Below, piece after piece: positions 30,483 through 33,529 of a stretch of DNA of 64,000 nt. The stretch comes from Hyphomonadaceae bacterium (lineage in GTDB: Bacteria; Pseudomonadota; Alphaproteobacteria; Caulobacterales; Aquidulcibacteraceae): positions 1-64,000 of the forward strand of contig JAEUMT010000021.1 in NCBI GenBank assembly GCA_016791365.1, in the 5' to 3' direction. Position 1 is the first letter of the stretch. Every line of letters begins with the position of its first letter. The notes beneath the pieces were generated by a model that worked only from the letters and a program-made list of their open reading frames with translations, searched no databases and was not told the origin of the DNA. The position numbers and the translations under genes were made by a program.

Positions 30483-30531
30483 ACTCTTGCTACTGCGCTT
30501 GAAACGGCGTCACTAAGAATGGAAACAGCGT

Positions 30532-31344
30532 CTAACGCCCGCGCCCCATATCATTCCAACGACGCGGATCGCTCAACAAGCCGCGCAGATACTGAATGTT
30601 CTGCGCCGCTTGCGCCGGCGGCAGATCCACGCGCTCGATTTGCTCGGCCTCATCGAAGCGGCCCTGCAGCGCCACGGCGATCGCCAAATTCTGACGCGCC
30701 TCCGCCGGCGCGCCCGCTTGCGCAACGGCTTGGCGCAGGATCGGTTCGGCTTCCGCCGGTTCGCCCGACAAAATGTGCGAGACGCCCATATTGGTGAGGA
30801 TGCGCGGATTGTTCGGCTGCAGCGCCAGCGCCTCTTGGTACGCTTGGCGCGCTTCGTTGAAACGTCCGACCTGATCGAGCGCCGCGCCCAGCGCCGAACG
30901 GATGCGCCAATTCTCCGGCTCGGCCGCCGCAACCATCGCCAACGGGCGCACCGCTTGTTGCGGCCGGTTCAGCGTGATCTGCGCATAGCCGTACGTCGTC
31001 AGCAATTTGCGGTCTTCCGGAAAGCGGCTGAGCGCTTCGCCGGCGATCTGCACCGAACGATCCGTGCGACCGCCCTTGCGCAGCGCTTCGGCGAATTGTT
31101 GCGCCGCTTCGAGGTCGTTCGGAAATGTTTGATATTCCGCCGCCCAGAACGCCATCTGCGTCAGCGCATCTTCCCGCGCCACCTGCTCGCGCGCGCGCCG
31201 GTCGATCGGCCGCGCGCCCTGCGGCGCGCCGTGAGCGGCGTCAGCCGCCGCCTGCGAGGACGAACCGTCCCCGGTCGTTGCACAAGCGGCAAGCGATGAA
31301 ACAGCAAGAAGCGCGATCGGCAGGGCGGCAAGCTGGCGGGACAT
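30532..31344 (-). CDS. tadD: TadD-like tetratricopeptide lipoprotein
   Basis: A 270-residue lipoprotein: LLAVSSLAAC signal with lipidated Cys21, an Ala/Gln-rich linker, then four to five TPR-like repeats (residues about 60-250; AQQFAEALRKGGRTDRSVQI, LLTTYGYAQITLNRPQQAVR, ALGAALDQVGRFNEARQAYQ, ILTNMGVSHILSGEPAEAEP, LAIAVALQGRFDEAEQIERV). TadD proteins are TPR lipoproteins of the tad apparatus that assist the secretin. Proximity to the cpa/tad operon supports this role. The divergent region upstream has been entered by the four-helix-bundle element (31405-31836), which begins 61 bases before this start codon. Confidence 0.88.
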   Translation of the reverse strand: MSRQLAALPIALLAVSSLAACATTGDGSSSQAAADAAHGAPQGARPIDRRAREQVAREDALTQMAFWAAEYQTFPNDLEAAQQFAEALRKGGRTDRSVQIAGEALSRFPEDRKLLTTYGYAQITLNRPQQAVRPLAMVAAAEPENWRIRSALGAALDQVGRFNEARQAYQEALALQPNNPRILTNMGVSHILSGEPAEAEPILRQAVAQAGAPAEARQNLAIAVALQGRFDEAEQIERVDLPPAQAAQNIQYLRGLLSDPRRWNDMGRGR

Positions 31345-31404
31345 GGTTGCGAATCCTAATAAGCGCCTAATGCTGCGCCCCGATGCTCAACAAAGGGCTA
31401 ATGA

Positions 31405-31836
31405 GGGACTAGGGTTTGGGGACTGGGGACTGGGAAATTCAGCCAATGCCGCTCACGAATTATCGGCAGCTCGACGTTTGGGCGAAGAGCATGGATTTGG
31501 CGGAGGCGATATACACGGCCGCGAGGCTGATGCCCAAACAGGAGGAGTATCGTCTTACGGCTCAGATGATCCGCGCAGCGATCTCTATTCCCGCCAACAT
31601 TGCCGAAGGCAACCTTCGCGCGACCCGTAAGGACTACGCCCATTTCATCAGCATCGCTCAAGGATCCGCCGCTGAACTTGAAACGCTCTTATTGCTTGCC
31701 GAACGCGCGAAGCTGCTTCAGCCAGAGGTCACCACACCATTGCTCAACAGCATCGATCCAATCGGCCGAATGCTGAACCGGCTGCACGCGCGTCTCGCCA
31801 GCCCCGCCTAGTCCCCAGTCCCTAGTCCCGAGTCCC
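31405..31836 (+). mobile_element. Candidate element: four-helix-bundle gene bracketed by inverted 7-bp arrays
   Basis: Left array: four in-register heptamers at 31405-31432, GGGACTA, GGGTTTG, GGGACTG, GGGACTG. Right array: four inverted heptamers at 31809-31836, TAGTCCC, CAGTCCC, TAGTCCC, GAGTCCC. Between them is one gene of 366 bases whose TAG stop is the first three bases of the right array. The element separates the divergent tadD and leucyl aminopeptidase genes and ends three bases before the aminopeptidase ATG. The compact, symmetric design suggests a unit that moves or is copied together, but no transposase is present. Confidence 0.6.
31446..31811 (+). CDS. Four-helix-bundle protein (23S rRNA intervening-sequence / Avd-like family)
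   Basis: A 121-residue helical protein of the family first seen inside 23S rRNA intervening sequences and related to the Avd accessory protein of diversity-generating retroelements. The motif order is typical: NYRQLDVWAKSMDLAEAIY (residues 4-22), then AAISIPANIAEGNLRATRKDY (about residues 45-65) and FISIAQGSAAELETLLLLAERA (about residues 67-88). These proteins form pentameric bundles that bind nucleic acid in the Avd case; a role here is not established. I chose the ATG at 31446; an in-frame TTG at 31416 would read the heptamers as GTGDWE. The stop overlaps the right-hand heptamer array. Confidence 0.9.
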   Translation: MPLTNYRQLDVWAKSMDLAEAIYTAARLMPKQEEYRLTAQMIRAAISIPANIAEGNLRATRKDYAHFISIAQGSAAELETLLLLAERAKLLQPEVTTPLLNSIDPIGRMLNRLHARLASPA

Positions 31837-31839
31837 GAT

Positions 31840-33222
<1,383 letters not shown>

Positions 33223-33451
33223 GTCGAATACGTCGCCAAACGTATCCCACACCTCGCGAGCGGCCGTAGAGTGTTCGTCGACGCCAAGACCAAGCCCACA
33301 CTCCCGCGCAGACGCACACGAGGCAGCCAACCACTCATGCTCGAACCCGCCACCAACCTGTTCGCGAGCTCCAAACACCGTTCAGGCGGCGTCCAGCGCG
33401 GTCGAAGCCAAGTTTTTTCAGCATCCGAAAACGCCTTAACGGACAAGGGTC

Positions 33452-33529
33452 GTTTCGGCCTGTACCGTCAACATTTGGTTAATCATTTCGGCCATTCCAC
33501 AACATCTTGTGGTTTCGGCCTTGTACTGA
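33452..33529 (+). promoter_or_regulatory. Direct repeats upstream of the MarR gene (possible operator)
   Basis: TTTCGGCC occurs three times in 70 bases (33453, 33486, 33513). The first and third copies extend to a longer imperfect direct repeat, GTTTCGGCCTGTACCGTC and GTTTCGGCCTTGTACTGAC, 60 bases apart. They end about 50 bases before the marR start. They could be an autoregulatory operator. The rest of the 33223-33579 spacer shows no gene. Confidence 0.4.

Follow-up and report, generated by a model that had tools for sequence, protein, structure and literature searches.

The small gene at positions 31446-31811 of the window (the whole 64,000-nucleotide stretch of DNA that was analysed) and the inverted heptamer arrays on its two sides are most probably an autonomous copy of a dispersed, selfish mobile hairpin element. 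We put the probability of this reading at roughly 0.66, and there are no binding, excision or transposition data for it. Our comparisons show that the architecture is general, that the two arms agree within a locus, that heptamer word and protein lineage are correlated and that insertions are patchy between related species. They also show that the genomes concerned contain scattered gene-less relatives, which turn up repeatedly in particular operon spacers and with varying heptamers. For an action of the protein on the arrays the support is only indirect, namely the covariation of heptamer and protein and the tendency of gene-less arrays to match the resident gene, a tendency with clear exceptions, and no binding data exist.

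The element in the window and its genome

The element lies between a tadD-like TPR gene (30532-31344, minus strand) and the divergent M17 aminopeptidase gene (31840-33222, plus strand, ATG at 31840), and not in an rRNA gene. The left arm (31405-31432, plus strand) has four 7-bp units of the GGGACTN type with the G-rich strand toward the gene, in the order GGGACTA, GGGTTTG, GGGACTG and GGGACTG, the second of which has two differences from GGGACTG. The right arm (31809-31836, minus strand) has four inverted 7-bp units, TAGTCCC, CAGTCCC, TAGTCCC and GAGTCCC. Tandem Repeats Finder gave 4.3 period-7 copies on the left arm and 4.1 on the right. The sole gene of the element (31446-31811, plus strand) codes for a four-helix-bundle protein of 121 aa of the PF05635/TIGR02436 family, as judged by profile matches, AlphaFold2 and Foldseek, and the right array starts with the TAG stop codon of this gene (31809-31811). 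The first-pass annotation had described four heptamers facing four inverted ones around one ORF, a PF05635-type protein, a stop codon inside the right array and a place in the divergent tadD/aminopeptidase spacer with the right array ending at 31836, just ahead of the aminopeptidase ATG. Sequence reading and Tandem Repeats Finder bore out the arrays, the profile score of 120.5 bits against a cut-off of 33.8 bore out the family, and the two remaining points stand as described. Beyond that annotation, our analysis adds the extent of the family, the gene-less copies (one of them in the window at 2822-2928) and the connection with 23S rRNA intervening sequences and with published heptamer repeats.

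The arrays in the window are far beyond chance. GGGACTNGGGACT, allowing at most one mismatch, had 4 matches in the window against 0.09 expected from 100 shuffles, and a stricter period-7 scan (15/17) found 3 arrays against 0 in each of 20 local shuffles. One of these three is the right arm of the PF05635 element and the other two belong to a hairpin at 2822-2928; the left arm at 31405-31432 scores under the 15/17 threshold. An Rfam search of 30500-33500 gave no match at E 1. The hairpin at 2822-2928, seen by Tandem Repeats Finder and by the period-7 scan, has no gene and is given no strand: it has GTAGGCA six times, then a loop, then an inverted arm of CCCATTG/CCTATTG type. At what we judged by reading to be the same site, G001, G006, G012 and G014 have a full PF05635 gene with ATCGGGG/TTCGGGG-type arms (L038, L043, L052 and L057).

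The assembly (65 contigs, 3.46 Mb, 2% contamination) has three PF05635 matches, all three with inverted heptamer arrays and each with another word: GGGACTN in the window, GGGAATN at L001 and GAAGTCN at L003. From the translations of the neighbours, we take L001 to lie between glyA and nrdR and L003 between imuB and dnaE2. The right arm of L003 is weaker (14/21, just below the threshold of 15/21) and was counted by reading. Arrays of GGGACTN and of GGCARTN were found in this genome also without a gene. Besides the three genes there are at least 16 gene-less array places, 6 with GGGACT and 10 with CGGCAGT, most of which are two-arm hairpins whose loop is some 10-60 bp long; some have one arm missing or degenerate. 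Two contigs of this assembly (G000, C33 and C40) carry two copies of rplO with differing upstream hairpins, possibly from contamination or a strain mixture.

Arrays at homologous genes

PF05635 genes have a patchy distribution, being present in 35 of 150 relatives and 17 of 30 genus genomes (both counts including this one) and in 62 of 398 genomes of the phylum. We assembled a set of 157 loci from the best 52 of 68 matches in relatives (the 16 left out were weaker and mostly fragments), the best 80 of 558 confirmed GTDB loci, taken by likeness to the window protein, and 25 loci from the phylum search, which were among the matches listed and do not include the remainder. Removal of 7 near-identical loci left 150, and removal of 11 with short flanks left 139.

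Period 7 at 15/21 or better was found to the left of 103, to the right of 99 and on both sides of 80 of these 139 loci; control windows 600 bp away (n=125) gave 3, 3 and 1. Periods 4-6 and 9-12 at 18/21 gave one match in total. When period 7 or 8, whichever was better, was scored within 200 bp, 131/139 loci had an array on at least one side and 86/139 on both, and the same rule applied to displaced windows gave 5 and 0 of 136 at 400 bp, 6 and 1 of 131 at 600 bp, and 8 and 0 of 127 at 800 bp. The proposal in the first-pass annotation was to fall if homologues had flanking heptamers no more often than chance, and 131/139 on at least one side against 6/131 at 600 bp exceeds the chance level. The array-bearing loci span Pseudomonadota, Chloroflexota, Cyanobacteriota, Acidobacteriota, Planctomycetota and others, the phylum labels having been assigned from record titles, and one of two archaeal contigs has an array. 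No array of period 7 or 8 was found at 8 of the 139 loci (L049, L055, L070, L086, L115, L133, L138 and L159). Period 8 occurs in a small set of loci that includes the Ochrobactrum/Brucella group; octamers were seen at L102, L116, L122, L129, L134 and L158.

Arrays were also seen by reading in three cyanobacterial plasmid copies, two of them near-identical. The Anabaena sp. 90 plasmid pANA02 (L413) has a type I-D CRISPR locus in which cas6 and cas4 are separated by a PF05635 gene with arrays of the GGTGACA type. At five loci from different phyla (L080, L085, L096, L101 and L138) PF05635 genes lie at one recurring point in what is apparently a single conserved coding frame (NLFVIFGEPDI ... VDVFHPNTGE), and L138 is without an array there.

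The two arms of a locus are related to each other. An inverted arm match was present at 94/139 loci versus 8/274 mispaired loci and 1/127 distal windows, and the left and right words were the same to within one mismatch in 64 of 80 loci versus 8% of between-locus pairs. A G-rich left arm and a C-rich right arm, that is, the G-rich strand pointing inward on both sides, was the rule in 76/80 loci; this polarity is broken in 4/80, and one or two have direct instead of inverted arms. With no fixed window the most frequent number of units per arm was four (left 39/98, right 47/96), our first count having used a 28-bp window that leans to four. Among the 75 loci with no more than 2 mismatches between the arms, heptamer distance followed protein distance with a Mantel r of 0.385, the highest of 5000 permutations being 0.18, and the mean heptamer distance was 0.95 for proteins differing by less than 30%, 2.25 at 30-40% and about 3.1 at 55-70%. 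This covariation is no proof of binding, because joint inheritance without recognition would equally yield it.

Occupied and empty sites in relatives

The sites that we compared were chosen for carrying an element in at least one genome, and each was read in a subset of the genomes; draft assemblies are among the relatives. Automatic detection (14/17) flagged 31 of 145 spacers and missed several arrays that were seen by reading. The tadD-aminopeptidase spacer was read in 29 of the 30 genus genomes, one being without a match. Only this genome (1/29) has the full element there, and most genus members lack the stretch 31405-31839 (plus strand), their array-free spacers measuring about 41-92 bp with ends that were extrapolated from protein matches. 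G003, which is closest to this genome in aminopeptidase identity, has a decayed copy that has lost most of the gene; G006, G010 and G001 have gene-less heptamer hairpins; and 24 of 29 have no heptamer array, G005 having a different hairpin and 23 having neither. Automatic detection finds 3 of the 5 array-bearing spacers. By reading, no target duplication is visible at this site.

The first-pass annotation had named empty sites already holding the arrays, in a manner fitting ordinary slippage, as grounds for rejection. What the relatives hold is 24/29 array-free spacers and five array-bearing ones, of which one has the full gene, one a decayed gene and three a gene-less hairpin, and slippage is insufficient because of what these five are. 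We rejected slippage alone since array-free spacers are usual in relatives and the arms are mostly matched inverted pairs.

Other spacers gave a comparable range of states. At glyA-nrdR, 21 sequences (20 and this genome) comprised one full gene, one remnant with arrays, 11 empty spacers, 6 gene-less hairpins of three word types and 2 other insertions, one of which (G025) has a partial array. At imuB-dnaE2, also 20 and this genome, there was one full gene, one remnant and one left array with another hairpin, and 18/21 had no array, the two genes abutting or overlapping. The insertion of this genome at imuB-dnaE2 has (A/G)TGAGCGG on either side, a possible direct duplication of the target of the kind that marks insertion sequences and MITEs. 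Nine groES-groEL spacers, from 12 genomes searched, included 6 with arrays of four different heptamers and 3 that were empty. The nuoC-nuoD spacers, read in 27 loci, are a hot spot with many kinds of insertion and were left out of the counts. Whether different words at one site come from one insertion with a later change of word or from repeated insertion at a hot spot is not decided. Larger palindromic repeats were seen in the same spacers or in the loops of heptamer hairpins (L266, L267, L181, L209 and L214). Two different sites have a short motif resembling GAGCGNNAGCGA after the right arm, one in L001, L263, L264 and L265 and the other, before rplO, in L399, L401 and L402.

The rpmD-rplO spacer bears on an alternative in which the arrays matter as RNA. 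Here a native mini-hairpin, GACGGC...GCCGTC, is present in 8 of 13 sequences, and the remaining 5 have array hairpins in its place (4 clear and 1 degenerate by reading, 3 flagged automatically). Two of these five come from this assembly with its 2% contamination, and therefore one of them may not belong. On the alternative explanation, the arrays are RNA-processing or regulatory stems between operon genes, such as RNase III sites or attenuators, that are kept or rebuilt by their hosts, and the protein is an RNA-binding partner and not a mobility factor. The replacement of one hairpin by another at rpmD-rplO suits it, as do the arms around a native terminator at cspA in G020 and the 28-bp stem of the Coxiella burnetii intervening sequence (IVS), which is cut by RNase III according to the part of that paper available to us (PMC4990558). 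The mismatches between arms speak for it only feebly, G.U being favoured over A.C by 90 to 67 (p 0.08), and strong selection for RNA pairing was rejected on this weak excess. Patchy presence and a change of heptamer at one site between species are not suggestive of a conserved regulatory part. We regard this explanation as unlikely, although it has more weight than the other rivals.

Gene-less copies and resident genes

Among 21 gene-less hairpins tested by shuffling, the loop was recognisably native in 3 (p 0.005 each): a promoter-like stretch after purA in G020, another purA case in G010 and the terminator after cspA in G020. The groES-groEL hairpin of this genome had p 0.017, the glyA-nrdR hairpin of G001 had p 0.047 and the remaining 16 were above 0.06. 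That the loop is always native is thus unsupported, being clear in 3/21 only. These three cases mean that the arms are able to flank native DNA, and for them a plain arm-loop-arm insertion is no explanation. We infer that in such cases the arms were made or copied in place, for example by fold-back or template-switch synthesis, and are not always imported with a loop.

The association of gene and gene-less arrays is real but loose. CGGCAGT arrays are present in 14 of the 30 genus genomes. The three genomes in which a CGGCAGT-type gene was seen, G020, G021 and G025, have 29, 24 and 16 matches, or 25, 16 and 9 when the gene's own arms are subtracted, and they differ from the other 27 genomes (Mann-Whitney p 0.003, and 0.005 without own arms). 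Many matches without such a gene are found in this genome (25) and in G017 (18), which has no PF05635 match, so arrays can be present without a matching resident gene. Of the 7 genomes with GGGACT arrays outside a gene's own arms, 5 have a gene of the same protein subtype or a relic of it, as have 4 of the 23 genomes lacking such arrays (Fisher p 0.014). The p value was 0.003 before own arms were removed and is 0.06 when the relic in G003 is not counted as a gene, and the subtype was assigned by eye after the data had been seen. G026 and G028 have GGGACT arrays and no gene of that subtype was seen in them. Several weak PF05635 matches in the genus are not in the set, and their words are not covered by these counts.

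It is conceivable that array hairpins came first, from slippage and fold-back repair, and that the PF05635 gene homes in on them as cargo. Such an order of events agrees with gene-less places being more numerous than genes (at least 16 against 3 in this genome) and with their occupying the same spacers as gene-bearing copies. We consider it improbable, because protein lineages retain their own heptamer across distant taxa and heptamer-specific homing or co-movement would be needed anyway. It is also at odds with the gene-bearing copy at imuB-dnaE2 in this genome, which lies where the genes of relatives overlap and leave no spacer. Marginally less credible still is that the protein is a regulator and the arrays its passively spread operators, for, while heptamer-protein covariation and arrays elsewhere in the genome are compatible with a regulon, most arms form matched inverted pairs that enclose the gene or a short loop, the same spacer holds different words in related species, and arrays are present in genomes without the matching gene.

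The protein and a proposed mechanism

The window protein scored 115.1 bits against TIGR02436 (cut-off 24) in addition to its PF05635 match, and its AlphaFold2 model had a mean pLDDT of 96.4. The top Foldseek match was 2gsc, Xcc0516 (TMq 0.86-0.90), and 2rld had TMq 0.78-0.81; the closest solved structures are Xcc0516 and BT_0352, each entry with five chains, Avd being more distant. The Avd proteins of diversity-generating retroelements (4dwl and 8ube) have the fold in common with the window protein (Foldseek TM 0.75-0.78), but the identity is only 12-13% and the profile matches are weak, with the Avd profiles under their cut-offs for the window protein (DivGenRetAVD 30.3 against 80 bits, bAvd 21.8 against 40 bits). 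Avd is a five-membered ring. A five-membered ring that reads tandem heptamers is an attractive but untested idea, there being no binding data. The conserved residues W12, P30, E33, Q40, R43, S47, A50, N51, I52, E54, G55 and E77 could line an active site, a suggestion made without measurement on coordinates.

A Pfam search of the window gene returned PF05635 and bAvd as the sole matches and no Y1 tyrosine transposase domain, and PADLOC gave no match. A search of this genome for the reverse transcriptase RVT_1 gave no matches, unlike what is found in diversity-generating retroelements. In the 30 genus genomes RVT_1 is present in 13, PF05635 in 17 and both in 7, against about 7.4 expected. A reverse-transcriptase partner is therefore unsupported, RVT_1 being absent here and showing no association with PF05635 across the genus. 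With the window protein as tblastn query, no match at E 1e-5 was found among 50,697 phage records; 17 of 72,556 plasmid records matched, 16 of them cyanobacterial.

For the selfish hairpin element we propose a mechanism that is inferred for the most part. The ends of the element would be the inverted arrays of about four heptamers each, with the PF05635 protein as its only gene product. The protein would recognise, at the DNA or RNA level, the heptamer of its own arms, might serve gene-less copies in trans, and together with host enzymes could bring about the spread of copies. Once transcribed, the arms would pair into a stem of some 28 bp, a possible RNase III substrate by analogy with 23S rRNA intervening sequences, and such cutting would allow operons to tolerate insertions. 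For the DNA step there are only guesses: fold-back or template-switch synthesis, or insertion of a hairpin at a fork.

A wider proposal is that there is a pan-bacterial class of selfish hairpins in which a seven-base word, present about four times per arm, is read by a small Avd-like ring protein. On this proposal the protein can place arms with its word on both sides of loops at new sites, including gene-less ones, and may rewrite old arms; the 23S rRNA intervening sequences and the unexplained heptamer repeats found in Xanthomonas, Nostoc and other bacteria would all derive from this class. No binding or mobility data support it, and we offer it tentatively, with the odds slightly against it. 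If our reading is right, a large gene family whose sole annotation is 'four helix bundle protein' acquires a role, and three puzzles, namely, rRNA intervening sequences, bacterial heptamer repeats and the relatives of Avd, become one. The element would be a mobile element without a recognised transposase or reverse transcriptase, and its specificity may follow a protein-to-heptamer code that could be read. In vitro assays can address directly which protein pairs with which word.

Comparison with known systems

REPIN/RAYT systems have a gene with inverted short repeats at its sides and gene-less hairpins of that repeat, and RAYTs are tyrosine transposases. The window element is like them in having a gene flanked by inverted repeats together with gene-less hairpins, but differs in that its gene has no match to the Y1 tyrosine transposase and its arms are heptamer arrays.

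Tandem heptamers are known from other bacteria. The TAACTGA repeats of Beggiatoaceae are, from the part of the report available to us, intergenic tandem heptamers that occur in cyanobacteria too, and nearly all of them are direct, unlike the inverted arms here (PMC4679880); its available main text does not contain the terms 'four helix', 'S23' or 'intervening'. Rehm et al. (2015) described heptameric G-rich repeats of Xanthomonas and Nostoc with the forms GGGNATC and (GGGANTN)n, with four units preferred and with 70 and 75 inverted pairs in two Xanthomonas genomes, and groES is among the neighbouring genes that are marked (PMC4692102). As far as the accessible portion of that paper goes, these were read as quadruplex repeats, generally without association with a mobile element, and its main text links no protein to the repeats and has the same three terms 0 times. 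The unit form and the preference for four are common to these repeats, so far as they are described there, and the window element. The requirement of Rehm et al. for tandem GGGANTN of at least two units is met by GGGACTN on both sides, one left unit being GGGTTTG; the GGGNATC-type consensus is not present at the window element. Apart from the IVS paper (PMC4990558), we found no link of the protein family to heptamer arrays in PMC4692102 and PMC4679880, in what was available of them; only open-licence PubMed Central was covered, and a report elsewhere is possible.

The nearest known system is the 23S rRNA IVS, in which, on the partial text that we had, the same protein family lies within terminal inverted repeats, as in the window element. 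Warrier et al. described, in the portion available to us, the IVS of C. burnetii, in which GACAGAT heptamers in tandem immediately precede the S23p ORF; it is excised by RNase III and termed a selfish element, and its possible mobility is credited to earlier authors (PMC4990558). Terminal inverted repeats of about 28 bp around an S23p ORF are a feature that the window element meets, with four units or 28 bp per side. The IVS lies in 23S rRNA, and its heptamers are, in what we could consult of that paper, given for one species and upstream of the ORF (PMC4990558), whereas the PF05635 elements here are mostly between protein genes, occur in many phyla, have heptamers on both sides with a word for each protein lineage, and have gene-less copies. 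An IVS-like selfish element is thus known, and what appears to be new is the spread outside rRNA, the paired arrays, the link of word and protein, and the gene-less copies. The 23S rRNA intervening sequence and the heptamer repeats of Xanthomonas and Nostoc look like special cases of the element described here.
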